The translations under genes were made by a program, and so were the position numbers. From NCBI GenBank assembly GCA_003194525.1, contig NBIV01000052.1, positions 248,001 through 312,000 of the forward strand: a stretch of DNA of 64,000 nucleotides. Reading direction: 5' to 3'. Origin of the DNA: Gracilariopsis chorda. Taxonomy: Eukaryota; Rhodophyta; Florideophyceae; Gracilariales; Gracilariaceae. The notes under the pieces were generated by a model. It was not told the origin of the DNA and ran no database searches. It saw only the letters and a list, made by a program, of their open reading frames with translations. This document shows, piece by piece, positions 3,001 through 37,400 of the stretch; the stretch's first letter is position 1, and every line of letters starts with the position of its first letter.

Positions 3001-3699
3001 ACCCTTCCTCTCAATGCTCCTGGTGTCGCGGTTCTGAAGGAAGTTCAATTTATCGCGGACTGCTTCGGGTACAGCTTATTCGTAAGGACTTCTATATACT
3101 TTGGAGAACGAAAGCGATCTCCGGATAAGGCAAAGTCTCCCAAGAGTCGTGGTGCTGAACGTGGGAATAGAAGGGTGCTGAAGAAGGGAATCTTGAAGTG
3201 CGATCAATACAATAACAAGATGACGCGATGCCTCTTCTCGATAACGATTAAGACGGAGGATTCTGGGCAGGAGGAAGATGGTGGAATGATCTACGTGGCT
3301 AATTTAAATGGTTGTAAACATGGACATGGTCCCTCTGGGAGCTTTGGTATTAGACATCTCAAGCCGCAAATGCGTTCTGAAGTGATACATATGACGAACG
3401 ATTTGCATATGAGCTTTAGAGATACCATACGATACCTGGAAGACAAGTACAATCAGAAGATAAATCCGGTATCGGCGAGGAAGAAGTTGAGGTATGCTTC
3501 CTCCACAAGCAATCCCCGCGATTTGGAATGTGTAAGGTTGTGTGATCTGCTCTTTTCGTTGAGCCAGGAGGATGCAGGGAATAAGGGATTCTTCGCTGCG
3601 GATGATTCGGGTAGGATGAAGTACGCTTGTTGGTCGTTTCGAGAGTGGATGGAAGACTACCAGAAGTTCGGCATTGTTCCGGGGGTATCTATTGATTGA
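1..3699 (+). CDS. MULE transposase, N-terminal part: Ulp1 protease, two FAR1-type zinc modules, first catalytic Asp
   Basis: The frame is open at the left edge, so the true start is outside the window; residues are numbered from the GTG at 10. Residues about 100-200 match a Ulp1/C48 (SUMO-protease type) cysteine protease: His109 (SHWGV), Asp134 (FGDS), Gln181 and Cys187 (SCGCY), with the usual Gln-x5-Cys spacing. A long charged, low-complexity linker follows. Two FAR1/GCM-like zinc modules come next, with Cys at about 620 and 627 and an HTH at about 651, then Cys at about 1064 and CKHGH at about 1103. From about 1195 the MULE DDE domain begins and reaches the first catalytic Asp (1229). A single TGA at 3697-3699 follows, and the same frame continues without indel to 5601. 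The family moves Mutator-like DNA transposons. Ulp1 domains occur in some plant MULEs; an N-terminal fusion in one frame is unusual to me. The TGA may make this a pseudogene. Confidence 0.85.
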   Translation, partial: FAVVKDHVARILIAEGKETSPVSLVHSSKPDSEMCSDLISTAVLNMVPSVGVAFASCSIGVMLTRLSKSFKGKKGNIPEEDLEVFKKWFTFKGNGDTEINTVLVPLNMSNSHWGVLVGKKIVNAARGTQRWTVWFGDSLGMSVDRRIMKLFSFLFPFCLTGDEALRAVISERNYMLQVKGFKRQKDSHSCGCYVVSLFTMFSADHGCIPKRTYASGYSRALTERIRWMSIRIRILHILMAKEFFQTDIVTETMVVRLRSEHRLELLRMRKEGKKRQRTKRSVERSIGMQTGKEEAGKEEGTDVNTVLGERKAGEGKVVDLQPMPLGTRDSEARAIRKSQRTKRVHELNQSSVQSSGMCLPLKIRMKRQVHFSDSAPVVADIVNTLIEICVSQRSEMVHKALGEKTGRSSEVSGASGVEEEQEMIQTGEGSEVDMDIDGHSPVKTISRTQAQVEVEAEEGAKDTAAPSELNAETEKHIEEKKQASENGGQAQELNEELAACSDAQIQEKPHMELPSMTMCEGRTTKTGSCTEDQADVQETFENNGRPSGVNVNLQDGRECKTELAISNERLVSALKGLKEVFDLPALVAYIAKNFGYLYGVQYFSVLQTRKSRSSALLTGKLRCLRHKSQCRSNIRAKFYPMERCWVIEQDLIHTHTPQQLPCPDDVVRRRFEGIRSSLASRLQEWEEHIRKNGEYVRLSCVFRTIPPFQGAEFYNSSSCYLLEHSHGPLSQSNAETGSEDDMAYGDSSGAEDFYPFYCVLHSTKCPERGGVFDGRASQRAVHEPKPELWKQHSSVSQEGGRPFSNLPKRPQQGPISREGIGKGGVNDVKCSDGLLDNAFNVESGVRGDFGISSFEADPPAASPNSSTQTVDAKCERARHSAVGAELGSKMSEESETLNANVAYAQQVSDEQSVEEEEALLIDRFLDDEEEVPSCFFEDSDGGILNEEESEPKEKDVLGEKDEKYWTEDGDEELGTESVQNTIPNERIEECFKAAVLAYLETLPLNAPGVAVLKEVQFIADCFGYSLFVRTSIYFGERKRSPDKAKSPKSRGAERGNRRVLKKGILKCDQYNNKMTRCLFSITIKTEDSGQEEDGGMIYVANLNGCKHGHGPSGSFGIRHLKPQMRSEVIHMTNDLHMSFRDTIRYLEDKYNQKINPVSARKKLRYASSTSNPRDLECVRLCDLLFSLSQEDAGNKGFFAADDSGRMKYACWSFREWMEDYQKFGIVPGVSID

Positions 3700-5601
3700 A
3701 AAGCCATAGCCAATAGATACGGTTTCCCTCTGGTCACCATTAATGGAAGAGCCAATGATGGTCATGTGTTGACATTTTTCATGGGGTATATGTGCTCCGA
3801 AACAGAAGAGGACTTCGTACGAATTCTGTCCTACTTCAAGTCTATAGTCGCCGTCTCACCGGCGATGGTAGTGATGGACCAGAACACTGCGTGTATAAAT
3901 GCAGCTGAGAAGGTGTTCAATTCGTCCTATATAAGCCTCGACGAATGGCATCTGAACGAGAATCAGAAGAAGAATGTGGCCAATTGGTGTAGAAAGATTG
4001 GTAAGATGGAGTGGATGCACGATATGAAGAAAGACCTGTTCAACCTCAGAAAGTCATATACGTCGGAAACGTTTTTCGAAAGGAGAAGAATGCTAGAATG
4101 CAAGTACTTTGATGCTTTTGACGATCGTCTCCCTGTGTGGTATAAGTACTTGTACCACTATAAGCCGCATATGCTGGTGTCTTGCTTCCGAAACGCGGCT
4201 ATACCTACCCGTTACATGTTCCAAGAAACTGGCTACACCGAATCTTCTAACTCTGCATACAAGAAGATCATTATATCGAAGAAGATTCCCTTGTGCAAGG
4301 TTCCTTTGGAGGTTCGGCGTATATCCCAAGAACGGGCTGATACCCGGAACTTGGAGCTTGTAAGAACCTTATCTTCTCAAAGTGGGAGATATCGGAAGAC
4401 AAGAGAGCTTGAGCACTTTCTACCTGTAGAAGTTGTAGACAGCCTGGTGGCTGAGTACACGAACTACGCCTTGGCGCACTTCGTAGATTTGAGCTTTAAG
4501 CCCTCGAAGAACTACATTCTTTCCAGCACAGAGGTTGTGGATTATTCACAGGAAGCGTGGCCGGAAGCAATCAGAAACCTGGAAAGTAGTTCAACCCCAG
4601 CAATGGGACCTGTAGCTCGCTTTAAGTTGAAATGGGGAAGCCATCTGAGTCAGAACCGGAATGCGTCGGTGGATGAAGAGCGCTCATCACAGGAGACTGT
4701 TGTGCAATTCTCAAAAAGGTATACGGGGTCGGGGGATGACGTTAAGGCAGAGTTTATTGGTGTCTGTTCCTGTGGGCAGCCCTGGTCCGTTGGTTTTGCT
4801 TGTCGTCACATGGTTCGATGTGCTGTGGTTTATCAGGAAGAACGTCTGCGTTTCCCTGAACTACGAAACATACTGGGATACTTCATACCTCTTGAAGCGC
4901 TTTTCTCTACATACTGGAGAAAAGATACTTCTGCTATGACAGTCCCATACTTGGCGAAACTCAGGTCAGAGACCCGATACTTCAACAACGAGGAGATGGA
5001 TTACCGACTACGCCGTTTTGATGAGTCGACGGAGAAAGAGTTTATCCCCATTGACTCAGATATACTTAGAACCAGTAGAGAAGACTCGGAAGTAGATGGG
5101 TACAATACGTACATGGAAGGAAAAAACCTCTACGATGCTTTACATCGACAAGCTACTGGAATTGGACGTGTTGCGGTGAGTGGAGTTCTACGTCTTTTAA
5201 GGGATGCCATCGCGGACATTCAGCAAGGAAAAGCGACACACTTCGAAGCTAGAGGTACCTTTAAAACAAGGCTGGCTTCATTAACAGAACACGCGGAAGA
5301 AACAGAGAACACTGTCACTTTACTGCATCCATCGTCTTCTACAAAAGGTTTCAGTTCATCAGGGATCCGTCCGCCAAACAATGGACGCCACAGAGCACAA
5401 CGGAGAAAGAAAAGCTCCTTGGAGCGCACGAGAAAGCGAGCGAGGACAAGCCCACATTCATCCCAGGAAGTGTCTCAGAAAGACTGTCACCCACCTTCAA
5501 CATCCTCAGAACCAGCTGTGACACCCTCAACTTCCATAGCCCAAGACGTGCAAGACAAAGCACTTCGAATTATGTCAAAGTCTCTCGGACACATCCACTA
5601 G
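3700..5601 (+). CDS. MULE transposase, C-terminal part: DDE domain and SWIM zinc finger
   Basis: This stretch is in the same frame as the upstream ORF and is separated from it only by the TGA at 3697-3699. The first ATG-like start is the TTG at 3766. Numbered from there, a MULE catalytic core is visible: second Asp at 38 (MDQN), the family's WH pair at 61-62, and a catalytic Glu at 159 in a YTESSN motif like the family's TESSN. A SWIM zinc finger follows with Cys334, Cys336, Cys346 and His348. The tail is basic and Ser/Pro-rich. Residues between the stop and 3766 continue the family's NRYGFPLVT-like strand, which shows that the break is a point nonsense change rather than a deletion. It probably acted as a DNA-cutting transposase in the nucleus. 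Terminal inverted repeats were not identified. Confidence 0.85.
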   Translation, partial: KAIANRYGFPLVTINGRANDGHVLTFFMGYMCSETEEDFVRILSYFKSIVAVSPAMVVMDQNTACINAAEKVFNSSYISLDEWHLNENQKKNVANWCRKIGKMEWMHDMKKDLFNLRKSYTSETFFERRRMLECKYFDAFDDRLPVWYKYLYHYKPHMLVSCFRNAAIPTRYMFQETGYTESSNSAYKKIIISKKIPLCKVPLEVRRISQERADTRNLELVRTLSSQSGRYRKTRELEHFLPVEVVDSLVAEYTNYALAHFVDLSFKPSKNYILSSTEVVDYSQEAWPEAIRNLESSSTPAMGPVARFKLKWGSHLSQNRNASVDEERSSQETVVQFSKRYTGSGDDVKAEFIGVCSCGQPWSVGFACRHMVRCAVVYQEERLRFPELRNILGYFIPLEALFSTYWRKDTSAMTVPYLAKLRSETRYFNNEEMDYRLRRFDESTEKEFIPIDSDILRTSREDSEVDGYNTYMEGKNLYDALHRQATGIGRVAVSGVLRLLRDAIADIQQGKATHFEARGTFKTRLASLTEHAEETENTVTLLHPSSSTKGFSSSGIRPPNNGRHRAQRRKKSSLERTRKRARTSPHSSQEVSQKDCHPPSTSSEPAVTPSTSIAQDVQDKALRIMSKSLGHIH

Positions 5602-24377: not shown

Positions 24378-25561
24378 GTGGAGAGAAACCTTAACAATAT
24401 TCTTACGGAACATGAATATAAACAACTTCTTTCCATCACATTTCAACCCACGACCAGCGAAAGGCAGAACGCGACCCCCAATTTCCGCCGCGTCATTACA
24501 AAAAGCATCACTCAAGATGTTAATCACATGCTTGCCGATCTTACGCTCTTCACTCAGTCTCCAGCAGCAATAGTTCAAGGTATCAAACGCGTAATTGACA
24601 GGCAATCAGCTTAAAATTACGTTAGCCTCAGCAATGAAGCAATGAACCTCTGCCGTACTGGAACTATCTCGGAATACATTGCAAGCCACCTTGCTATTCG
24701 CCGCAAACAAATGTCAGCCAATAATCCTGGAATATCCGACGAACGCGTGACCGTGAACTACATTTTTTTAGGACCTTGTGAATGACCATCGTGTTATTCA
24801 ACGAGCTGCCACTATAATGCTTGACACACCCCCAACCACCATTAGTGAAACCCAACACCGCCTAGAACAATACAAAAGCATTCTAAATCAACAAGAACCC
24901 ACCTCACATCAATTCCATTGTTTCACACAAACTCTGCCTATAACCCGCCTCTCGCATTCATATCGTGGCCGCAGTCGTGGACGAGAAACATATGGCCAAT
25001 CCCGTGGCTGTGAGCTTCGACAAGCAATAGAAGACATCAATACGAAGCTCTAATCATTGCAACAGAATAGGGCACGCAGAGGATGTGGTAGAAACCGTGG
25101 AGCCTCATCTGCCAACCGAGCCACTACCCATACCGACACAGTATCAGCAGAGATTCTACAAGCCATCCAAACCCTCAAAGAACTGCCCAACACGCAGACT
25201 GCAGTTAACGAGCAACCACGTAGGTACACTCTAGATTCAGCCGCTAACCCCACCATTATCAGCCACAAAACGGCAGACGAAACTAACCTCCCTACACCGA
25301 CTACCACACAAACTGCCACTTCTACTGTTTAGACCAAGACAAAGGGAGTTTGAGAATACTCAGTAACACTGGAACTGTGTTTCGCATTCCAAGTCTCATC
25401 AACGAAGATATTAAAAGCAACCTCATCTCCATGCACGCCATCGCACAGCTATGCGGCCCCGTTGTCTTTGCCCCACAATTTGCGGTCATATTGAGCCGTA
25501 CAAGGCCGCTCCGTATACTAGGTCCTGCGACATGGAAGAACAACTGCTACACATGTGGTGC
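24378..25561 (+). pseudogene. Copia-like Gag and protease, degraded
   Basis: Gag-like sequence starts at 24378 and, after a TAA at 24612-24614, continues in frame (SEYIASHLAIRRKQM, then ISDERVTVNYIFLGP). It changes frame at about 24780 to a segment with an Arg/Gly-rich RGRSRGRETYG. A protease-like YTLDSAANPTII appears at about 25235, with DSAA where active enzymes have DS/TGA. A later frame (25350-25560) has the protease C-terminal hallmark NLISMHAIAQLCG. At least three stops or shifts show that it is dead. It ends at about 25561, where the hairpin array starts; no integrase follows. Confidence 0.6.
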
Positions 25562-25565
25562 AATG

Positions 25566-26378
25566 CCCCAAAGGGGAAAAACACCGAAAGACGTTCGGGA
25601 TCTTCCTCTCACGAGGTGAACCCAGTTGGGTAGAGCCCTCCCAGAGATGTCACGGCGAAGCCGGTTTGTAAGACCAGGGACACCTGTCGCGACTCGCGCA
25701 GGGAGGTGAAGGCGAAGAATCGGTATCCGCGTGAGCGGGGTGTGATCCTCAGTAGAGGTATGTTTCCACGTAAGTGGGGGTGTGTGAGCGGATGCGCACA
25801 CGAGGGCCGCGGATAGCGGGAGGTGCTACCCTAAAAAGGGGAAAAGGAAGGGCGAAGAGGAGCAAGAGAGGACGAAGTGAGTCGCGAGGGTGATGGGGAC
25901 GAACGGCGATGCCGGTAACAATATCCCTATACAGGGCGAAACACCAATGCAATTGGAATAATATGACTCCCAAGGATGGGCCTCTTTAGATGTGCAAGGG
26001 GGTTAGATGTCCCGTGATTTACGGCGTTTCCCTCCAAGGAGGAGTAGAACACGCGCGCAAGCGGCAACAACTAGAGCCAATTCCCCAGGTTGGGGTCCCT
26101 TGTTGGGGAAGGTTTACTGGTGCGACGGCAGTGCACCGTCGCACTAAGTACTAGCTTCCCAGAAATGGGTGTGAAAATAATAAATAATATTAACTAAAAT
26201 ACTCCACATTTCGTGGCAACATCCACTACTGTGGCCAACCGCCAATTGACCCAAAACCGTGTCCCACGTGTCCATACCCACCATTGTGGGGCGTAGTTCA
26301 TATACACACTACACAACCGATAATATCGGGAAAACGATCAAGTGCCAGGAATCCCTCCCTGAGGGCGTTGCACTACAA
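25566..26378. other. Mini-hairpin array 1
   Basis: About 800 bp packed with at least 26 small perfect inverted repeats, most of the form CCNN, loop of 3-5, NNGG. Examples: CCGAA/TTCGG 25584-25598, CCGC/GCGG 25727-25738, CCTC/GAGG 25747-25758, CCAC/GTGG 25766-25777, CCCT/AGGG 25829-25840 and 25925-25936, CCAAT/ATTGG 25944-25956, CCGT/ACGG 26012-26024. Also CCCA(GAAA)TGGG 26158-26169, CCAC/GTGG 26204-26216 and 26223-26234, CCCAC/GTGGG 26277-26290 and CCGAT/ATCGG 26317-26329. The longest stem is 8 bp at 26121-26143. Stem sequences differ from one another. Only a purine-rich stretch (about 25841-25900) lacks them. No ORF with a domain is present. It sits between the protease and RNase H parts of a copia-like element. 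Confidence 0.85.
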
Positions 26379-26407
26379 CACACTCAACCTCCGAACCAAT
26401 TCATCCT

Positions 26408-27030
26408 TTGCCAGCACGTCCATCACAGACACATCGGCCACACAAACCCAGCTCCCAAACACTAAACCACGTGCTACCCGGGCATCGCTACTACCGGCAG
26501 CACCTCCATCCACCAAACGCTCCACCAAAAAGAGTGTGCGCTGCACAGCTTCATTCTGCCCCACACCCCTCGCCCGTGTTATCCCACAGCCAAAACTCCA
26601 AAGCTCCGATCATCCAAACTCAGAGCTACCCAAATGGTACCTTATTCTCAACCACGCATTTTGTACATGAGAAACTGGTCTCCTGGTCCTCTCGAAAGCA
26701 ACCGATCCCAGCGCTTTCAACGTGTGAATCAGAATATGTTGCAGCCACAGCCGCAACGAAAGATACAATTCTATTCAGACGTATACCCCGCTTTCTTTGT
26801 TTTACCATAACCGCACCTTCTCCACTTTACGTGGACAACCAAGCCACTTTCTCAGTTGCTCTAAACCAAGGAGCAACAAAATGGCGAAAGTACATCGACT
26901 TGCGCCACCACTATCTGCGCCATCACATACGCGCAAATAACATTTCTGTCAAAAATGTTTCCTCCACGGACCAATGAGCGGACATCCTCACGAAACCACT
27001 CAAGTCTCATGCGTTTAAACGTAATCTTTG
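26408..27030 (+). pseudogene. Copia RNase H and pol C-terminus, degraded
   Basis: In one frame: GTLFSTTHFVHEKLVSWSSR, then STCESEYVAATAATKD and YVDNQATFSVALN, then KYIDLRHHYLR and, after an in-frame TGA at 26975-26977, ADILTKPL. These are the standard end motifs of copia pol (SWSSRKQ, SEAEY-like, DNQ, KHIDxxxHxxR-like, TKPL). The reverse transcriptase that should precede is absent; the sequence upstream to 26378 has no RT motif. Confidence 0.8.
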
Positions 27031-27088
27031 AATTCTCCGCATTCAATCACCTCGCACAGCCGTGCAATGACCCGGCCACCCTAGAAAA

Positions 27089-27281: not shown

Positions 27282-30194
27282 TGTGGGCGCCATCACGAGA
27301 CGGTGACGCAGGGGGCCAAAATAAATGACAAAATAGCGTAAGAAAGGTGTTCCTCGTAGCTCAAAGCCCCAAAGAAATGAAACGACAGGAACAAAAGATC
27401 AAAAGAACAACCAATGCAGGGACCAAAAGGACTCAACCTGCAACTATAAAAACAAATACAAAAGAAGAGCACAAGGCGCAATCCAAAAAACAACTTCTTG
27501 ATACTTCCTGAAACGGTGCAACACCCAAGAATTATTTCAGGGGTCACTAAGAGTCAGACTCCTGGCTTTCAGTAAGACACTCCGGATGTGAAGTGATTTC
27601 TGCAGCCTACCCACTTCTGCACCAACCAGAAGCAGGTGCGTACAATTCTTACAGTGCTTCCAAAGGAGAGTTATTGACAGCGGAATATGCTTTCACTGTA
27701 TACCCAATCTGGCCCTTTGCACGAGAGGTTGCACGGCACGTCGCCTGCGGACAGCTTCCCGTCCAGCACCTTTGTCCGGAAACCACCAGGTCTTTCGACC
27801 GTCACTGTTATCCGAGCAAAGCTACGGTGGGGGCTCACAGACGACAGAAGCTCCTTTGGTACACACTACCCGTCTCCCATCCACTCCCAGGGCGGTTCAA
27901 CTGGTCTCAGTGACGGTAATGCCCCACCCTATGCATTCACAAAGCGGCGAGCGCCTCACTAAGTGCGGTGGAGAGTTGATGGTTGATAGTAAAAGTTGAG
28001 ACAGTTGTGGGGGTGAGGAATTTCTTATGTCGTTCCCGAGATGAGTCCAGACCGAAGTCCGAGACTCAACTCGCCCTTTTAGAGTCAGAAAGCACGCAAA
28101 AAAACACAGAAACGCAATACTACTTTCTACTTGCTCATGTGTGCGTCTAGGTTACTCCATTGGCTTCCAGAATCCTCTGGAGCTGCACACTAACCAATAG
28201 TAATCTAGCAACTGGCGCCTTCATCACCGAAATATAGTGGTAATGCTGGGCCAGCGACGCTTAGAATGCTCCAGACACTGCTGGAGCAGTCCACACGTCT
28301 GTTCCAGCAGTGCTGGAACATTCTACCACCTTCGCCACCGACATCTCACAAACAAACCAGAAAACAAGAAATAATGATAATTAGTTCAATCCACACACAA
28401 CGCGTGTAGCATTAGATCTGTCACGCAGTCCCTCCCTCTAACTTGACGTGGAGAACACGAGAGGGGGAGTCTATGTGAGATACCATCTCATTTTCTGAGA
28501 ACCACCCGCCTTTCGTTGCTTCCACCACCATCCCTGACTTTATTATACCCGCGGCCCCACCACAGTTGACCATCGCTTCTCCTGCACCAACATCTTTTGC
28601 TGCCCTCCCCCGCCGCAACTGCAGCCAGCTCTTCACGACCGTCAAAAACAGCCCAGAAATGGAGACAAAATAACCTCAGCGTCCCCTCGCAAGCGGTTCC
28701 GAACACGCACCTCACACTCACATACGGCTTGCGCTCCCACCTCCCAACCACGACAAACTGCGTTGAATAACGTTCAATGCAGGCTGGACGTTGCTGATGT
28801 TACAATGGCAGGTTCGCAGTGATAGTAAATGCCCCTTGTTACCGGCTTTAATGCCGCACGCAATGCTACAAGGCTTCCTCAATACTTCAGCACAGCATAT
28901 TTTAAAGGGGATCTCTCCATTTCATATGCCCATGCACTTTTTGCGGCAATTAAGTGCGCCCAAGTGTCCGTAACATCATGAGAAGCGAAACGCGCCCCTG
29001 GCTTTTCTTCTAGTTTTCTCTCCCCGGTCGAGCTTTGCTTGCTCTTCTGCATCTGTTTGCGTTTGTGTTGACACCCACGCCGCGAGCGCTCCCACCTTTT
29101 GCAGCCGCTGGTTTGGGAAAAAACAAAATAGAGGCAAAGCTGTCAGCAAGCATGATCATTCATTCATTTAAACGAGTGTTAAACACAAACAATAGAAATG
29201 GGATGGGATCGATGTTCCGCAGACAATTGCAGTTTGACGAAATCACCAAACCACGAAGAAGCTTACGCAAATAGAATGTACGCGCTTGAGCTTTCAGATA
29301 ATCGATTTATATAACGGTCAACTGTACAAGTTGTCTCTTTATCAGCGATGTGGCATAGGACTTTCTCTAGTTCTTCTAATAAAGAAGAGAATAATCCAAA
29401 GCCCTCGACGCGGTCCGGGACCGGTGGTTGACACGATGCTGCTGGAATCATGTGGTGCCATCACCAGATATAATATATTGCTACAAAATTGCCCTAAGAA
29501 GAACAGTACCTTTGCCGAGCTGGTTTGCCATGGAAAAGATGTGTCACATGACATGTTATCGAGAGTAAGTGCTTAGACCTATTATGTAAAACTGGAGTTA
29601 TTCATATAGAAGAATGGTACGTAGAAGCCCGAGCTTCGCAGCCTCCAAGCCAACTCGGGCCAGACCACTTCTCTTTCCTCTTGCAACCCCCACCTTTCAT
29701 TAGAGCTATCTGCTCCTCCTTACCTCCAAGACTACTCTACTCCACTTTCCCTCCGTAGCTGTGCAGCTCCATCTCCTGCATATCGCGAGAGATTCGGCTG
29801 CCTCGGTCTTTTATGAGACCAGCCGGCATATTCATCACTACCACATAGCGTCTGCTGGACTTCAAGTGTTGGTCGGGCACGTTACCAAGTTTGCTCCAAG
29901 CCACGCACTAGGCCCAAGGTCTTTTTCGTGCATGTCTGGTGAACACTTTCGTATCTATATTGCGCCAGTTTTAAGGTTTTGTTTGCACATCTGTTTTCAC
30001 CGTGGTTCTTCTCTACCACTACTACTGGGCCACGGTCTGGTGTACGCCTCTATCATCATCTATTTCTGCCTTGCCTTAGTTGGAGCCGTGCATTTCTGGC
30101 ACCTATCACTGCAGTGCTTACGTTCCTATTAATCTTTCTCGGTCTACTATCCATTGGTGTGGTGCCAAACCGTGAGTTAATGGAGGAAACTCGC
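27282..30194. other. Non-coding stretch, no convincing gene
   Basis: ORFs are short and lack domains, including 29761-30132. A near-perfect inverted repeat lies at 28263-28324 and a smaller one (CCAGA/TCTGG) at 28167-28180. Otherwise nothing is recognised. Confidence 0.35.
28263..28324. repeat. 26/27-bp inverted repeat forming a long hairpin
   Basis: The left arm starts AGAATGCTCCAG and the right arm ends CTGGAACATTCT; the arms pair except for about three positions around a 9-nt loop. Internal CCAGCAGTGCTGG is itself palindromic. Confidence 0.85.
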
Positions 30195-30993
30195 TACCCC
30201 GGAAGGGATATCTCAAGGTGTTCAGCCTTGCTCCCCTGTATGGGGCGATTCAGCCGTAGACCCCTCCGAGGAGTCGGCGCGTGCCAGTCGTAACTACAGG
30301 CGCCTACGTCCTGCCTTACAGATGGGGGTGTGTAAGATGGCTTAGAACCGGGGATCCGGATGTGCCGGGCCACGGCTATCTCCAGGGACCAGAAATGGGC
30401 GGACAACGACAAGCCGCACTGTGGAGCACTGACTCGTGACAACGATAAATAATCCCGAGACTTCGGGGCAAACCTGGATACAGGGTGGAGTAACATGAGC
30501 CGTAACACGGGTAAGTAGACCAAAATAAAGAAACAAATAAAGAAACAATTACCGTTACTAACGGGTGGTCACTGCTCGGAGAAACGAGGGCGATAACTTG
30601 ACCGGGAACGGTGGCGACACTCTTCGAAGTCAGAGTCATAGCCGTACACCAACGCTAGAATTAGAGCCAAGTCCCTCGATGGGGTTTTGTTTTGGGGAGG
30701 AGCGGCGGCGGCCGCCCCCTTAAATACCGTAGCTAAATATATTCAGTGTAATGCACTAAGTATTCCGGCACAGCCGGGCAGTACATTCACGTGTGCTACT
30801 TGGCCCGTGGGCACGGAGCATTCCACTAGTTGGGAGCATCACGTCCCACGTGTACTATTATTACCCTCTACACAGAGGTACCCCCTAATGGGGACGTCAG
30901 GTGCCGGATATTCATATACAACCTATCAACCCCGGGGATACCGGCATCCCGTTATGAAAAACGGTTTGATCCCCTCGTTCTGATGGTACATTG
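30195..30993. other. Mini-hairpin array 2
   Basis: At least 22 small inverted repeats in about 770 bp: CCC(GGAA)GGG 30198-30207, CAAGG/CCTTG 30214-30230, CCCC/GGGG 30233-30245, CCGG/CCGG 30348-30359, GCCG/CGGC 30364-30376, CCA(GAAA)TGG 30389-30398 and CCCGA/TCGGG 30454-30467. Further ones: CCTG/CAGG 30473-30484, CCGT/ACGG 30500-30510, CCGTT/AACGG 30552-30564, ACCG(GGAA)CGGT 30601-30612, CCGGC/GCCGG 30765-30777, CCTCT/AGAGG 30865-30878, CCCC/GGGG 30882-30893 and CCGTT/AACGG 30949-30964. Linkers resemble array 1 at several places (TAGAGCCAA before a CCC..GGGG stem, GCACTAAGTA, GTCCCACGTGT, TTCATATACA, TTGCACYACAA), in the same order. No copia coding sequence flanks this copy. Confidence 0.82.
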
Positions 30994-31525
30994 CACCACA
31001 ATTAGCATTGCACGCCTGTGCTAGTACTCTTGAACTGCAAATTGATTTGCGATCTACTCTCCGACAAACAAGGGTACAGAGAGGGCTGTTGTCGTCTGTT
31101 GTCATGAAATTGTACATCATGACGCTCAAAAGATTTATATAAAGCGAAACAATGACTTTCTTTTATTATTATTATTATACTACCAGAATAGCCACCCCAG
31201 CTACGCTGGTTGCTTTGTAGTCTATGGTAGTGGAACTAAATGTAGTGTGGCCGGAGGCTGGTCCTGAGACGGTACCATAAATCATCCTTACAAATGCATT
31301 GTTGCCGACGAGGAGCCTTTCGCTGTTGGATGTGGCATAGCCGGGTGGCGAAGGGGAGTCCGGGCGCAGGGCGGGCGCGCGCGCCCGTTCTCGAGTTCAA
31401 ATCCCGGTTTTGCCCGGCTCGCCTATTCTTTTCCAGCTTCCGGCATCCACTGTAAGGCATGCGTTTCTGTAAGCACCATTCAAAGAGAGAGGCAGGAGGC
31501 TTGCAAAGAAGGGAGGGTGGGTGGG
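30994..31525. other. Non-coding flank of the DIRS-like element, with tRNA-like A/B boxes
   Basis: No coding sequence. A TTATTATTATTATTA microsatellite lies near 31163. Pol III-like boxes lie at 31333-31404. AGAGAGAGGCA at 31484 repeats the first bases of the element end at 31527. Confidence 0.4.
31333..31404 (+). promoter_or_regulatory. Pol III-like A and B boxes (tRNA-like or SINE head)
   Basis: TGGCATAGCCGG (31333-31344) fits the A-box consensus exactly, and AGTTCAAATCC (31394-31404) fits the B box in 10 of 11. Spacing of 61 is in the range of tRNA genes with a variable arm, and a GGGCG/CGCCC stem lies between. The acceptor stem does not pair at the expected place, so this is not called a tRNA gene. 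Confidence 0.35.
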
Positions 31526-31814: not shown

Positions 31815-34800
31815 TTACCAAAGCGGGGTTGAAGCGGGCAGCGTCACACGAGACGCGGTAGGCCCGAACACCCAGTACGACGCAGCACTCGACTGAATAG
31901 TGCGGTCAAAATAAGTGTTGGCCATATCACCACTCCGCGGCCCCCACCCAAAGCGACTGAGCCTGACCTCCAACGGTATCCCAAGGAGCACTTGCTCTGT
32001 GTGTGCTCCGATACGCAAAGAATGCGATGTGAACTTGCCTTCCGTTGGGGCACCGAGCTGCAGGGCGCGCAAACAATTTTTCAATGCGTGCGTTAAGTGT
32101 CCAGATCGCCAGTTGGCGCTTTCACCCGGAAGCGCAAAGAAGCGATCATGCGTGCCACGAGACTGAGACCAGCGCAGAAGGACATCTAGCGGCGAAGAAA
32201 GAAACTGCAGTCTGTGGTACTGTGCCAGGGGAACAGTGCTTGCTGCGCGTCCTTTAACGACAGACAACCGAACGGTGACCGAATCCGATGAAATCTCAGT
32301 CAAAGCGGTGCGGAGAGAAGCGACGGAGCTCTCACGCAAACCGTTCATGATGTAACTCAGGACGCACATGGCCGAGTCACGGAGGAGGGACTGCGTATTG
32401 GTCGTGAGTCCCAGATGGCAGATGCGCTGCAGGAGCGAAGCCGGTACGCCACAGCGGACGACCTGCTGCGGGAAATTCTGCTCTTCCCATCGGCGATAGC
32501 CACGTAACACGTGGACCATCATCGGGTATGGGGGAACTGGAATACCAGTAAGTATAAGCTGCATCTGGCGAACAGCACTCAGGTACTGTGGGATGGAGGC
32601 GCTGCCCACAGAACGATGGCCGGCTTCGCGTTCCACCCCAAGCCATCCAACGAAGGAGAGGAAGTGCGCCTCCGTGACTGGGAGGATGGGTCGGTTATCG
32701 GTTTCGCAGAAGGCAAGCCAGGCTCGCCACTGAGAGTGGCGCGACCTGCCTGTGCGATCACTCCAGGCGTACTGCTCCAGGAGGCGTGCGGTCATGGCGG
32801 TTGCAGCAGTATGGCCTCCGGTGGCTGTGGTTGCCGACTGCAGACGGCGGGATGCGCGCGTACTTATGCGTCCAGATTGATTTCCAGCATCAACAGGCGC
32901 CACCGTGGGTTCAACTTCCGATGCCCTTCCCATATTGCCTGAGGAGGCCCCTCCAGCCGCTTCACTGCCTGGGCCAGACCTAAGGCCGCCGAGTGCCAGG
33001 GCTGACGGGGCCAGTCCGGGATCAGGAGCATTGCGGGGGCGCGTGTCGACCGCAACTTGTGCAATGTGGCCGCGATGAGTTGCACCGGCGGGCAAAGGAG
33101 CCGTACTTGGTCTGACCACGGCGTTGCCAGCTCCTGATAGGCTTGTCGCTGGAGATATGACGGATGCTCCCCGGTTGGCCGGAAGGGAAAAACGTCGATG
33201 GGAGCCTTCATTCCAGCCTGCACGGAATGCCGCAGCTGCCGTCTGATCTGGAAGTCGCCGCGTGGGAATCGTCGCGACAGCGCGTCCGCAAAGCGATTGG
33301 CCACGGAGGGAATCCATTCCGAGCGTATCTGGAAACCCAGTCGATCGAGGACACACTTCAGACGACGGAGTTCGCGCATCATGTGGCGACTCGCTGACAC
33401 CATGGCGTTTGTAATATGAACGACGGCCATATTGTCGACATGGAGCAACAAATGCTTGCGGCCCTGGTTGGCGAGTTCCGACCCGATAGACCCTGTCAGC
33501 AGCTTCCGTATGGCTTTTAACTCTCTGAAAGATATGCTCTCTGCGCGATCTTCCCAGCTCCAAATGCCCTGATCTTGCAACTGTCCATCGATCCCTGCCG
33601 TCAACTCTTTCGTGTTCAACGTGCCTCCAAAGCCGACATCCGCCGAGTCCGAATGCACCGAAGCGGTCGGGACAAATGGGTGCATAGATCTCCCGAGCAG
33701 CTCTTGGCGGGAGAGGCGTTTCCATGAAAGTAAATCTCGAACGCTCTGATGGCTGAGACGGACACGGCTCCGATGGTCGAGGCGACGCCCGGACGACATG
33801 TCCCAATATAAGGCACGCGTGTAAAACCTTGCCCATGGCATCGCAAAGGTGAGCGAAACGCACAAACCGCAGAAGTGTGTCAGCTGCCTTCTTGAGACCC
33901 ACCGCTTTCCATGGCGGACGCTTGTCAAAAGCTGAGCTGCCAATTGCCGCACTTTCGCAGCCTTCCGCGGGGCGACGAAGAACTTCATCTCCACACTGTC
34001 TATGTGAACTCCAAGGTGCTCGATCGAAGTAGAACCTACCCATTCCCCTTTGGTTGGATGCCTTCTCAGCCCAAGCTGCATCATTAGTCGATCGATAGCG
34101 CGCCTTGCCGCGATGCAATGGCGTTCTTGGGCGACCACCCCGAAAGGAGATGGAACGATGAGAAAATCGTCCAGATAGGCCAGCACTCTGTACCCCAAAC
34201 TGCGCAAATCCGTTAGAAACGGGACCATCAACTGAGTGAACCATAGCGGCGATCGACCCCACCCAAAGGGAAGTGCGACACATTGGTAATACCGGCCTCC
34301 ATACCGGAAAATGAACAATTTTCGCATCAGTGGATGGAGTCGAAAGTGCCGGTAGCCCTTCTGTATGTCCATCGACAAGAAATGGTCCCGCTTCTGAATC
34401 TCCATCGCAAATTGCGAGAGAGACTCCATCCGAACTGTCCCTTTCTTCCAATGCTTCGACTGAACGCTCAGGTTGACGACAAACCTTCCCTTCCTTCCTT
34501 CGACACCATCCTGCCATATCACAAAGGCTGATGATATCACTGCACCTCGTGATCTCGACCGCTGTGCTTCTACTGGAGATATCTCGTGGTAGATGCCGCT
34601 TCGGCATCCCTCTTCCAGGTCTGCTTTCGCAAACAAGCGATCCTCGTCCGTTTGCGGAATATCCCCCAGCTCTACCCCCGTTCCTGTGAAGGGAACCGAG
34701 GGCTTCTCGTATATTCCGAACTGAATGGCACGGCATAGAAATTCCGAACCACCCTTCTGGCGCCATGCTTGGACTCGTCGTTGAGTTCCGAGCCAAAGAG

Positions 34801-35504
34801 GGCGCCTCTGGACGATTGCTATCACTTCTCGCCGGTGGCACCCTTCCCGGCACGCTTCGTTGCGTTGCTCGCACTGAGGGTGGCACCGCTTTCATGAGCT
34901 GAGTTGCCATGAGATTTTCCAACTTTTCGAGGGACTCATACAGATCATCTGCCGCTGGAACTTCGCCCCGTTGTTCCAATGTCGGCATCACCAGCTTAGC
35001 ATGTACCGGATCCCGAGCTGCCATCCTGTAGAACTCTGTCCGCAGGCCTACAACCCGGAGCCCATATCGAACTGCCATTAGGGACCATACATCGAATCGG
35101 AAAGCTTTTTCTTCGTCCTTGTCCTCGATAGCCTCCTGTCGGAGGCAAATGGCAGCCTGGTGAAACGACATCCAGTAGCCAGACGAATTGATGTAGTTGG
35201 CTTCATATTCGTAGACAGCTCGCATGCTTGAATGTTTCTCGAGCTGCTTACGGGGAGGCCACTCACGGTGTTCAAAGAATCCACCTGTGAAAGCAGAAAC
35301 CGAGTCTCCCTGCTCATATGGCCATCTAGTAAGGCGGAGTTCTCGGTCGTCCCTGCAGCGCCTTGCAACTGCCGCGTAAGCCATGAGCCAATCGGAGTCA
35401 ATCTCAGCTTCCTCGAGCGTCTTCCCCTTAGCCACAAGCTTGGCTTTTGCCAGCAGTTCTTCCATTTTCTTCCAGCTAGAAGAAAAACCAGACACGGACG
35501 TCAT
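31815..35504 (-). CDS. Gag-to-tyrosine-recombinase frame of the DIRS-like element (1229 codons)
   Basis: An unbroken 1229-codon ORF starting at the ATG at 35504. Residues 1 to about 230 are Gag-like: charged, with Trp/Arg motifs and no zinc knuckle seen. Residues about 230-880 overlap the reverse transcriptase, which is read in another frame; here they are Arg/Ser/Gly-rich with no domain. From about 900 a tyrosine recombinase appears: catalytic Arg1057 (NGLRESS), Lys1084, His1161 and Arg1164 (HSLR), and nucleophile Tyr1198 (ANTYF). The recombinase joins the circular DNA copy to the genome without making a target duplication. It is unclear whether one long polyprotein is really made or whether the two ends are expressed separately. 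The ORF ends 69 bp before the terminal repeat. Confidence 0.85.
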   Translation of the reverse strand: MTSVSGFSSSWKKMEELLAKAKLVAKGKTLEEAEIDSDWLMAYAAVARRCRDDRELRLTRWPYEQGDSVSAFTGGFFEHREWPPRKQLEKHSSMRAVYEYEANYINSSGYWMSFHQAAICLRQEAIEDKDEEKAFRFDVWSLMAVRYGLRVVGLRTEFYRMAARDPVHAKLVMPTLEQRGEVPAADDLYESLEKLENLMATQLMKAVPPSVRATQRSVPGRVPPARSDSNRPEAPSLARNSTTSPSMAPEGWFGISMPCHSVRNIREALGSLHRNGGRAGGYSANGRGSLVCESRPGRGMPKRHLPRDISSRSTAVEITRCSDIISLCDMAGWCRRKEGKVCRQPERSVEALEERDSSDGVSLAICDGDSEAGPFLVDGHTEGLPALSTPSTDAKIVHFPVWRPVLPMCRTSLWVGSIAAMVHSVDGPVSNGFAQFGVQSAGLSGRFSHRSISFRGGRPRTPLHRGKARYRSTNDAAWAEKASNQRGMGRFYFDRAPWSSHRQCGDEVLRRPAEGCESAAIGSSAFDKRPPWKAVGLKKAADTLLRFVRFAHLCDAMGKVLHACLILGHVVRASPRPSEPCPSQPSERSRFTFMETPLPPRAAREIYAPICPDRFGAFGLGGCRLWRHVEHERVDGRDRWTVARSGHLELGRSRREHIFQRVKSHTEAADRVYRVGTRQPGPQAFVAPCRQYGRRSYYKRHGVSESPHDARTPSSEVCPRSTGFPDTLGMDSLRGQSLCGRAVATIPTRRLPDQTAAAAFRAGWNEGSHRRFSLPANRGASVISPATSLSGAGNAVVRPSTAPLPAGATHRGHIAQVAVDTRPRNAPDPGLAPSALALGGLRSGPGSEAAGGASSGNMGRASEVEPTVAPVDAGNQSGRISTRASRRLQSATTATGGHTAATAMTARLLEQYAWSDRTGRSRHSQWRAWLAFCETDNRPILPVTEAHFLSFVGWLGVEREAGHRSVGSASIPQYLSAVRQMQLILTGIPVPPYPMMVHVLRGYRRWEEQNFPQQVVRCGVPASLLQRICHLGLTTNTQSLLRDSAMCVLSYIMNGLRESSVASLRTALTEISSDSVTVRLSVVKGRAASTVPLAQYHRLQFLSSPLDVLLRWSQSRGTHDRFFALPGESANWRSGHLTHALKNCLRALQLGAPTEGKFTSHSLRIGAHTEQVLLGIPLEVRLSRFGWGPRSGDMANTYFDRTIQSSAASYWVFGPTASRVTLPASTPLW
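32864..34825 (-). CDS. Reverse transcriptase/RNase H of the DIRS-like element
   Basis: A 653-codon frame lying wholly within the Gag-recombinase frame but shifted relative to it. Reverse transcriptase motifs: Asp153 in SMDIQKGY, ALPFGWGRSP at about 184-193, and YLDD at 217-220. RNase H follows with HSDSADVGFGG (about 391-401), FRELKAI (about 439) and HVDNMAVVHI (about 470). The C-terminal 150 residues resemble the region where DIRS elements carry a DAM-like methyltransferase, but no such motif is recognised. The listed start is a GTG; a real start could come from frameshifting out of Gag or from internal initiation. It would copy the element RNA into DNA. Confidence 0.88.
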   Translation of the reverse strand: MIAIVQRRPLWLGTQRRVQAWRQKGGSEFLCRAIQFGIYEKPSVPFTGTGVELGDIPQTDEDRLFAKADLEEGCRSGIYHEISPVEAQRSRSRGAVISSAFVIWQDGVEGRKGRFVVNLSVQSKHWKKGTVRMESLSQFAMEIQKRDHFLSMDIQKGYRHFRLHPLMRKLFIFRYGGRYYQCVALPFGWGRSPLWFTQLMVPFLTDLRSLGYRVLAYLDDFLIVPSPFGVVAQERHCIAARRAIDRLMMQLGLRRHPTKGEWVGSTSIEHLGVHIDSVEMKFFVAPRKAAKVRQLAAQLLTSVRHGKRWVSRRQLTHFCGLCVSLTFAMPWARFYTRALYWDMSSGRRLDHRSRVRLSHQSVRDLLSWKRLSRQELLGRSMHPFVPTASVHSDSADVGFGGTLNTKELTAGIDGQLQDQGIWSWEDRAESISFRELKAIRKLLTGSIGSELANQGRKHLLLHVDNMAVVHITNAMVSASRHMMRELRRLKCVLDRLGFQIRSEWIPSVANRFADALSRRFPRGDFQIRRQLRHSVQAGMKAPIDVFPFRPTGEHPSYLQRQAYQELATPWSDQVRLLCPPVQLIAATLHKLRSTRAPAMLLIPDWPRQPWHSAALGLAQAVKRLEGPPQAIWEGHRKLNPRWRLLMLEINLDA

Positions 35505-35613
35505 GTTTGTTTAGTTCCAAACGTGGGCGCGATAGCGTTCGCGCTTGGCCTACTTCTTTTGGCCGTACTAGAAAGTCGCCTACCACCAGGATGTACTGGG
35601 GACTCTCTTGTAA

Positions 35614-35834
35614 AAGAGAGAGGCATACCCCAGGAGCAGCGCCGCTCCGGCAGGTACCGATCTCAAATACTTGTGCCACCCGGCGCCGGCGGCGGTGACT
35701 GCGGTTGATCCAATTCGGATTAATGATCTGATCATGACGAATTGCGTACACGGCGTGTCATACCACCTGCGTGGCTATCCTTGCTATCCATGACGTCGTT
35801 ATGTTTCATCCGCGAAAACAAGTCTTCACAAGAC
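35614..35834 (-). repeat. Terminal direct repeat, element 5' side
   Basis: 221-bp partner of 31526-31746. On its inner side lies the hairpin CTCTCTTGTAAAAGAGAG (35604-35621). Confidence 0.93.
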
Positions 35835-37400
35835 AAAAACCCAGATTTGACAACCCGTACTGTAATTGGTTTGAGAATACCGAGAAGTGCAAAAACAACG
35901 AAAACTATAAACAGTGCTTTTTCCCAGCATTTACCCTTCAAAGGCTCTTAGGGTTGCTCTATGACGTTGTTATGCTGTACACTGCTAATTATGCCTTATA
36001 AACTTCGAGTTCTGGTCAGTTTCAGTTTCCGTAGAAAACGGAAGGGCACATCTATAGAAAAGCTTTCTATTTCATTGGCAAGATTTTTCACGCCACCATT
36101 TAAGTATCATAAACTGATTTTATTTTCTTCTCACTTTATTTCTGTTCTTAACCTCGGTTCGAACAAAAGCATTACAAAAGCCTACAAAACAAAACACACA
36201 AAAACTAAGAATGCTATTGGGTCCTTTTAATATGATCTGCATTGCAATACACACTTAAATGATAGAAACCGACATTCCATCATTCTTGGTGTCCCAACTT
36301 GATATGAAATTGAAGCACAAGCAGAACTCGACTTTTGATTGGTAGAAGGTGACCAAAAACGCAAGAGTATGGGGATGAGATAAGTTGTTGATCACATGAC
36401 TGCGGACACTTTTGTGCTACATAAAGAAAGTAACATAAACTTCCATGTTTTGCAAGCTGCTCTCGTTTTACTGGAAGTCGTGTAATCTCACTTTTACTGT
36501 TTTTGCATAAACAAATTCATATATCTGCCTTCAAATACGAAACTGTAATAAACAACGCAATTTTTTGAGTTAAAATTCAATAAAACATTTCCATCTACCA
36601 TACAAAGTCATGACGCAGTGACAGTGGTCAACACCACAATGTTTTCATACAAATAAGGGTCAGTTTAGTGTTTTCATTTATTTAGTACACAACGCCAGAG
36701 CCTTTCGTTTCAAGTTTAGCTTGGGAGCAGTTCTCATCAAAGCTTGCCTCAAACTAATTATATATTCATATGCCGCTGGAACATGTTACACGGTTTGGTC
36801 GATGGTGTCTGCCATGATTTTCATGTTCCCATAAATAAACTTTGACTGTCTATACGTTGAATATCTTGTACAATATCGTCGTTTTGTGTAAGGCTGTGTT
36901 TGAAGAGAAGATAAAACCACCACGTCTTTCGAAATCTTCCTTTGATGAGTTTAAACTACTCAAGAAGGCCTTTTAAGAAATGAAATGACTTTGTCGATGT
37001 TAGAACTGTGCAAAATATGTCTTGATCTGCGTAAGGTGATTAAGAGAGAAAAAATAATCCACTTAAGTGGTATAGTTTTCTTTCAGTGATGGCAGTGGTT
37101 TTAATTATGCGCAAGAAGGGCAATATAAAATACTAAAAGCTGAGCAAAGCAAGAGAATACCAGTCGTAACTGGAAAACGGAATAAAAGAATATCTTTGTG
37201 ATGACGGGGATCAACGAAGAGTTCATTGCCGATGGAAATCTTCATAAAATAATACAACAACAGGAATGAATACGATAATCTCCTTGATGGGTCTTTTTAG
37301 TTTTAAAAGGAGAGTTAGACCAATTATTGCAACAAATTACATGTCCATTGATAAGATGAAGTGTGGGGATGTCGATTATTTCTGATGCCATACTTCTTTG
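35835..37400. other. AT-rich stretch, nothing recognised
   Basis: About 1.5 kb clearly richer in A and T than the rest of the window. ORFs are short. There is no repeat, RNA gene or transposon motif that I can recognise. Confidence 0.4.

Follow-up and report, generated by a model that had tools for sequence, protein, structure and literature searches.

What could leave two neighbouring stretches of DNA with the same unpaired linkers in the same order, yet with different stems that still pair perfectly? The question is raised by two arrays of small hairpins within a 64,000-nucleotide stretch of a Gracilariopsis chorda contig, hereafter the window. A sequence-only reading had proposed that the arrays share an ancestor, that their stems had changed on both sides together or been swapped whole, and that either selection on pairing or the insertion of ready-made palindromes was responsible. 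The six linkers on which that proposal was built do occur once per array, in identical order, at the following window positions.

Linker GGGGGTGTGT: 25776 in array 1, 30324 in array 2
Linker TAGAGCCAA: 26072 in array 1, 30662 in array 2
Linker GCACTAAGTA: 26141 in array 1, 30753 in array 2
Linker GTCCCACGTGT: 26261 in array 1, 30843 in array 2
Linker TTCATATACA: 26297 in array 1, 30911 in array 2
Linker TTGCACYACAA: 26368 in array 1, 30991 in array 2

The arrays have 16 exact 9-mers in common (overlaps counted) and a longest collinear chain of 12, compared with a mean of 3.4 and a maximum of 15 shared 9-mers, and a chain of at most 9, in 300 dinucleotide shuffles of array 2. Array 1 contains 23 perfect stems of at least 4 bp that are bounded by a C..G outer pair and enclose loops of 3-6 nt, and array 2 contains 15; the averages over 500 shuffles are 2.75 (maximum 8) and 2.96 (maximum 9), respectively. 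An extra hairpin had also been claimed for array 2, and there are indeed two at 30865-30893 where array 1 has one at 26277-26290. The mini-hairpins, to which no strand is assigned, include the following.

26277 to 26290: CCCAC-catt-GTGGG, array 1
30233 to 30245: CCCC-tgtat-GGGG, array 2, as are all that follow
30266 to 30277: CCGA-ggag-TCGG, overlapping the best covarying helix (below)
30348 to 30359: CCGG-ggat-CCGG, overlapping alternative to the next
30356 to 30368: CCGG-atgtg-CCGG, alternative to the preceding
30454 to 30467: CCCGA-gact-TCGGG
30473 to 30484: CCTG-gata-CAGG, recognisable in several further families
30500 to 30510: CCGT-aac-ACGG
30575 to 30588: CTCG-gagaaa-CGAG
30765 to 30777: CCGGC-aca-GCCGG
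30840 to 30852: CACGT-ccc-ACGTG, overlapping linker GTCCCACGTGT
30865 to 30878: CCTCT-acac-AGAGG
30882 to 30893: CCCC-taat-GGGG, or 30881-30893 with a 5-nt loop
30932 to 30944: CCGG-ggata-CCGG
30949 to 30964: CCGTT-atgaaa-AACGG

Both arrays are solo LTRs, belonging to two families (F1 and F2) of one Ty3/Gypsy chromodomain retrotransposon clade. The assignment follows from TG..CA ends, target-site duplications, the existence of paired copies, and a gag-pol that runs antisense to the strand of the sequence-only reading.

25549 to 25553, no strand: left target-site duplication of array 1, ACACA
25554 to 26377, minus strand (gag-pol sense): array 1, solo LTR of family F1, 824 bp, ends TGTGGTGC..GCACTACA, 23 C..G mini-hairpins
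26378 to 26382, no strand: right target-site duplication of array 1, ACACA
30153 to 30157, no strand: left target-site duplication of array 2, ATTGG, matching the right copy at 4 of 5 positions
30158 to 31000, minus strand (gag-pol sense): array 2, solo LTR of family F2, 843 bp, ends TGTGGTGC..GCACCACA
31001 to 31005, no strand: right target-site duplication of array 2, ATTAG

The two units share the start TGTGGTGC and an end of the form GCAC[CT]ACA. In the 91.3-Mb assembly (1081 contigs), 16 of 18 further F2 copies span the whole array 2 unit with ends within about 10 bases, and array 1 has 39 further copies with the same ends at 96-97% identity (40 candidates scored of 1804, array 1 itself included). 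A 5-bp duplication with at most one mismatch flanks 31 of the 60 fetched loci in which both ends were recognised. Elsewhere in the genome, LTRs lie in same-strand pairs, 9.07 kb apart for F1 and 10.3-10.9 kb apart for F2. The interval 30195-30993, first taken as the unit, is the interior of a dispersed repeat whose boundaries lie sharply at 30158 and 31000; the first reading recognised neither that the arrays are LTRs nor that the hairpin pattern runs over the entire element. Rfam yields no match in the window at the gathering score and none in the arrays at E<=5. Because of this, and because LTR anatomy suffices to explain the unit, a structured non-coding RNA gene, a group I/II intron, a MITE and an rRNA fragment were rejected.

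The surroundings hold several further features. To the right of array 1, at 26501-27060, a frame resembles by eye the RNase H end of a Copia element (YVDNQATFSVALNQGA..ADILTKPL, one stop), which suggests that the F1 LTR sits within or next to the remains of a Copia element; the ORF overlapping this frame has no Pfam match. Two adjacent palindromes, GCTCCAGACACTGCTGGAGC and TGTTCCAGCAGTGCTGGAACA, lie at 28261-28326 and give sub-threshold miRNA-family matches on both strands. On the plus strand, a 1229-aa frame at 10-3699 has a weak Ulp1-type peptidase match barely above the Pfam cut-off, and a 611-aa frame at 3766-5601 has a MULE match below it; from these matches the two may together be a Mutator-like element with a protease. 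A second 1229-aa frame, at 31815-35504 on the minus strand, has no Pfam match. The nearest named relatives of a window gene with an FGE-sulfatase domain are in Agarophyton chilense (62%) and Gracilaria domingensis (58%), which points to a gracilarialean red alga as the probable host.

The nature of the complete element is apparent from a young F1 copy, L076 (G000:C57:37025-46921), whose LTRs are 99.15% identical. Its pol contains, by Pfam, RVT_1 (368-526), RT_RNaseH (620-721), H2C2 (855-912), rve (930-1026) and Chromo (1735-1772), the RT - RNase H - integrase order and C-terminal chromodomain of a Ty3/Gypsy LTR retrotransposon. A primer-binding-site-like stretch starting with TGG lies 3 nt past the LTR, and a G-run followed by ATA (polypurine) precedes TGTAGTGC. 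Its Gag has one CCHC motif, CX2CX4HX4C, at residue 622, although Pfam calls no zinc knuckle in it. An in-frame stop directly after the protease motif DTGAG means that this copy is not intact. Between integrase and chromodomain, its pol has about 700 proline-rich residues (14% P), a part that is also hairpin-dense (53 in 2223 nt). In F2, three scanned pieces gave integrase-core matches alone, and homology to F1 in pol and gag was found by tblastn; further families, termed F3-F7, also exist. The common ancestry proposed for the arrays is borne out by pol homology between families. Protein relatives reach 60-66% identity. In the viral and prokaryote genome collections, no related DNA was confirmed. 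Short contigs such as C573, C819, C883 and C1001 carry RT_RNaseH matches head-to-tail every ~5.68 kb, which may be tandem copies of a further Gypsy family or may have arisen in assembly.

The hairpins of the young F1 copy extend through LTRs, gag, pol and spacers as a stereotyped unit. Its stem is perfectly Watson-Crick paired and usually 4-5 bp long, the outermost pair is C(5')-G(3') (usually CC..GG), the loop has mostly 3-5 nt and the outer span is mostly 11-14 nt, neighbouring units often lying 6-11 nt apart. Counted as perfect stems with this outer pair and loops of 3-6 nt, L076 has 233 units where 40 are expected, 226 of them with stems of 4-5 bp and 7 with stems of 6 or more; 219 units remain once overlaps are removed, and units cover 28% of its bases. 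Stems of the opposite type, G..C, number 44 against 41 expected. The excess exceeds z 3 in 30 of 31 stretches of 600 bases, with gag and pol resembling the LTRs. A second F1 copy, L078, also bears the unit repeatedly (179 versus 31.7), and it is present less strongly in F6 (168 versus 38.4), in F7 and in three decayed F2 copies (89-103 versus 35-37). Within the genes, the unit is built by synonymous codon choice: pol of L076 holds 120 units and gag 53, whereas 100 synonymous-codon shuffles give means of 29.5 (maximum 42) and 13.4 (maximum 22). LTRs of F1, F2, F5 and F6 likewise show an excess of perfect 4-5 bp stems with loops of about 3-5 nt and little excess at 6 or more bp. In F1 LTRs, C..G stems average 23.3 against 2.7 expected; G..C stems are not in excess in F1, F2 or F5 and are somewhat so in F6 (7.7 versus 3.0).

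Three other-clade Gypsy loci of the same genome have no unit excess (z 0.6, -0.7 and 0.3), nor have eight Copia loci (z -1.5 to -0.2), these being the best eight matches from one family search and hence not eight independent families. Within the clade, four diverged LTR copies (F4, F5b) show a weaker excess (z 0.8-3.1) than three F1 copies (z 5.2-7.6), and L104, with pol 78% identical, reaches z 7.9. A sliding scan of the 64-kb window for the C..G unit returns 11 stretches that pass z 3.5, all within 25201-26800 and 30001-31400. A separate excess of perfect stems with loops of up to 8 nt (33 versus 16.0) at 35281-36120 lies below z 3.5 for the C..G unit; no cause for it was found on reading the sequence.

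That the hairpins are under selection had been suggested from the arrays alone, and the suggestion is borne out by the codon choice described above and by two further lines of evidence. The first concerns the fifth base pair, in which a unit can extend its stem only by shortening its loop. In L076 and the F6 copy L093 pooled, a fifth pair is present in 79 of 143 units of span 13 and in 45 of 81 of span 14, which leave loops of 3 and 4 nt; these rates of 0.55 and 0.56 exceed the shuffled values of 0.25 and 0.27 (p 2e-14 and 9e-8). With 5 nt left the rate is 0.37 (p 0.02), and with 6 nt it is not raised. With 1-2 nt left (16 of 67 at span 11, 29 of 123 at span 12) it falls to the shuffled level of 0.24. 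The 3-nt value is driven by F1 (59 of 83), a fifth pair being hardly favoured in F6 (20 of 60, versus 0.27), while both families carry the 4-nt value (16 of 30 in F1, 29 of 51 in F6). Were the outer pairs all that counted, the fifth-pair frequency would be equal at every span. The fifth pair thus follows a steric loop limit, implying that units are selected to fold as single strands. It is in this light very improbable that the units are dyads in duplex DNA, recognised by a protein of the host or of the element such as an integrase or silencing factor: a constant outer C..G and a narrow span would suit such a site, but the arm sequences vary freely, and a fifth pair favoured at loops of 3-4 nt and not of 1-2 nt is unexpected of a dyad.

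The second line of evidence comes from variation among 23 F1 LTRs. Variants present in two or more copies amount to 5 per 202 stem sites (0.025), compared with 0.077-0.086 elsewhere (Fisher p 0.005), while one-copy variants show no such deficit (0.223 per stem site, 0.187-0.215 elsewhere). The deficit persists with stems defined from one F1 copy (0.024 versus 0.075), but sham stems also show a smaller one (0.048 versus 0.083), so that part of the effect is unspecific. Taken together, the hairpins appear to be kept foldable by selection.

What became of individual stems can be followed between families. Mapped through the protein alignment and counted over gap-free codons only, 32 of 115 F1 hairpins lie no more than 2 nt from one in F6, while 40 synonymous shuffles of F6 give a mean of 6.2 (maximum 10) and a shifted control a mean of 7.5 (maximum 16). 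Co-location is also seen for 7 of 36 F1 hairpins in F7 and for 17-18 of 93-103 in three F2 copies (shuffle means 3.5-4.6, maximum 10), above each of 40 target shuffles in every comparison (means 1.2-6.2, maximum 10 across F6, F7 and F2). In the LTR alignment, co-located hairpins exceed every shifted control in 4 of 10 family comparisons. Among the 32 hairpins co-located in F1 and F6 genes, both arms have changed in 19, one arm in 7, and the stem is the same in 6. Joint change of both sides therefore describes a part of the hairpins, but covariation at the level of single pairs is weak.

The recommended covariation analysis, performed with an R-scape-like test under a tree-based null, found none of 353,220 column pairs at E<1. 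Its alignment had 59 rows. Of the 21 F1 copies 8 were retained, L042 was omitted, eight copies that were partial or carried flanking sequence were trimmed (L027, L037, L038, L040, L043, L044, L081 and L086), and 6 of 7 F6 copies stopped at an internal motif before the LTR's true end. Doubly changed stem pairs are still paired in 35 of 87 cases, control pairs in 858 of 2425 (0.354). Stacked helices of four or more pairs, at least 60% paired, number 15 as against 4-7 under five altered pairing rules, and their summed covariation is 2.55 against 0.27-1.08. One helix, at F2 positions 114-149 (window 30271-30306), contributes 0.97 of this sum. At three or more pairs the difference is small (63 versus 52-57), and at 80% paired nothing is left. 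Compensation above chance is accordingly visible as co-located hairpins with different stems and hardly as classical covariation.

The insertion of ready-made palindromes fares worse as a general process. Some single hairpins are present or absent together with a gap between LTR families, but 83 of the 115 F1 hairpins in gap-free codons lack an F6 hairpin within 2 nt, indicating gain and loss by substitution, and not one of the 45 stem changes private to an F1 LTR is compensated; a MITE or mobile palindrome was ruled out as a general process on the gap-free gain and loss. A related explanation holds that a mutational process, such as template switching or quasi-palindrome correction by RT, makes or perfects short inverted repeats with no selection on pairing. 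Perfect Watson-Crick stems almost devoid of wobble forms and the 19 hairpins changed in both arms are what such a process might leave, yet it must also accommodate private changes that are equally common in stems and elsewhere and never compensated, shared variants that are rare in stems, a fifth pair tied to the loop limit, and the absence of an excess in all 11 other RT-element loci of the genome. It is consequently regarded as quite improbable. With most positions unshared, selection favours the presence of hairpins more than the retention of any one of them, and stems are often replaced.

Which strand folds is less clear. The strongest indication in favour of sense RNA as the strand being read comes from an asymmetry at the base 3' of the hairpin: on the sense strand it is A in 0.42 of 60 LTR, 0.40 of 106 pol and 0.50 of 44 gag hairpins, and in 0.46 of 131 F6 hairpins, while the mirror base is T in 0.15, 0.12, 0.16 and 0.19, respectively. 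The asymmetry is confined to F1 and F6; in F2 and F5 LTRs, A (0.17 of 12 and 0.31 of 13) equals mirror T (0.17 and 0.31). With a 30-nt span, the sense strand folds better in all 3 F1 LTRs compared, and the antisense strand in all 12 LTRs of F2, F3, F5 and F6. The MFED, computed over at most 2700 nt from the start of each ORF with synonymous shuffles and 252-nt windows (which differs from the published scan), is 12.7% sense and 10.3% antisense for the first 2700 nt of F1 pol. Sense values are 11.7% for F1 gag, 5.2% for F6 and 2.9% for F7, compared with 5.6% and 0.7% for Copia and -1.4% and 1.8% for other Gypsy controls; F6 and F7 are not above the Copia control at 5.6%, and F7 is better as antisense. 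Folding energies are thus contradictory as to strand and do not decide it. Sense-strand 4-bp stems with one internal G-U are not in excess (36 versus 33.0) and those with A-C little so (48 versus 38.8), against 322 versus 40.1 for perfect stems. Missing G-U is odd for RNA helices, though a stem of 4 bp may be too short to tolerate a wobble.

These data bear on the possibility that the hairpins have their role not in RNA but in the single-stranded minus-strand cDNA made by reverse transcription (in strand transfer, protection or RT pausing). The lack of a clear G-U excess on either strand, the A-rich loops of the antisense strand in LTRs (0.33-0.40) and the antisense folding preference of the 12 LTRs would all be consistent with it, and the missing 3' A in two of four LTR families strengthens it while weakening a Gag-based reading. 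Against it stand the 3' A on the sense strand in F1 and F6, the slightly higher sense MFED in F1 pol and F6, and the loop limit of 3 nt, which fits RNA; DNA can close loops of 2 nt. A role in cDNA is therefore judged improbable.

On the best reading, the element has a GORS-like structure whose building block is a single stereotyped hairpin, with Gag perhaps making contact many times over. That the hairpins of the genomic RNA are interchangeable low-affinity Gag sites for particle assembly is given a probability of about 0.38. The folded molecule would be the genomic RNA, which would carry every LTR base, with U3-R at its 3' end and R-U5 at its 5' end. Gag, having basic stretches and a CCHC motif, could bind neighbouring hairpins cooperatively and thereby compact the RNA and pick it out for particle assembly. 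Since a hairpin would need only a suitable size to serve, single stems would be free to change, with the same positions and linkers coming to hold other stems; after integration the constraint would be lifted and the hairpins would decay. A wider version, proposed tentatively and with odds below even, is that about 200 C..G-clamped, interchangeable mini-hairpins over LTR, gag and pol are recognised by form and mark self from host RNA along the whole molecule, with no single packaging signal.

The spacing of units helps to separate Gag contact from a GORS-like shield against silencing, which would need no dedicated binding protein. Gaps of 6-11 nt are in excess in L076, and of 8-11 nt in L078 and L093; gaps below 4 nt are avoided in L076, and gaps of 60 nt or more are about as frequent as under random placement. 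The hairpins are thus clustered, whereas a shield of even cover would deplete long gaps, and Gag contact is favoured for this reason. The fixed C..G outer pair and narrow span also suggest recognition of form, and the MFED of F6 and F7 does not rise above controls. A shield would nonetheless suit the few stems of 6 or more bp (7 of 233), a spread over the whole genome in which the identity of the paired bases matters little, a trait reported for GORS (PMC7642675), and the 12.7% of F1 pol (first 2700 nt), which lies within the range given there for structured viruses. On balance a shield is considered unlikely, if less so than a role in cDNA.

Comparison with known systems relates the favoured reading, a GORS-like RNA with possible Gag contacts, to two of them. 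MS2-type dispersed packaging signals number in the tens, compared with about 200 candidate sites in the element. As reviewed in PMC6281560, the packaging signals dispersed through the genomes of MS2 and other RNA viruses resemble the element in combining many short stem-loops with a common feature (one of recognition, putatively so in the element), variable surrounding sequence and a dependence on spacing, but they are defined by a loop motif, and the element's unit by stem base and size. The form shared across the element is the C..G outer pair with narrow span, joined by the 3' A in F1 and F6 only. GORS, in the account of PMC7642675, comprises several hundred consecutive stem-loops through the coding genome with inexact covariance, and MFED values reach 7.5-10.7% in HCV and 12.5% in pegivirus. 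As in the red algal element, positions and pairings evolve fast and paired sites are less variable; structure runs throughout the element and pairings are poorly conserved (32 of 115 F1 hairpins co-located in F6). GORS as described concerns positive-strand RNA virus genomes. The present case is an LTR retrotransposon and so is GORS-like, outside the described set; it differs further in having one uniform C..G unit, LTRs included, with a unit excess far above the folding-energy excess.

Among LTR retrotransposons, yeast Ty3 belongs to the same superfamily and has a Gag-derived nucleocapsid with chaperone activity, structured RNA and palindromic sites (PMC11381356, PMC4974528). RNA probing as presented in PMC11381356 describes a well-folded core near RT rather than a repeated mini-hairpin. 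According to PMC4974528, nt 429-4979 of Ty3 are dispensable in cis, and UTRs or POL are needed for localisation and packaging; by analogy, this dispensability would count against Gag sites spread along the element. The conserved LTR models of PMC3601003 place stem-loops in long R regions and at LTR borders, as single or few structures, unlike a hairpin array through LTR and genes. Among the matches listed from the open-licence literature, none reports such a hairpin pattern in an LTR retrotransposon. The logic is thus common to GORS and to dispersed packaging signals; the kind of element and the uniform unit set the present case apart. If true, an LTR retrotransposon would here offer a natural, strongly selected case of a second, structural code written through protein-coding sequence. 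The unit is uniform, and young, diverged and related copies lie beside unaffected control elements in one genome, so that questions posed by dispersed packaging signals and genome-scale RNA structure (what selection targets, how exact pairs must be, and how fast stems are replaced) would become countable from sequence.
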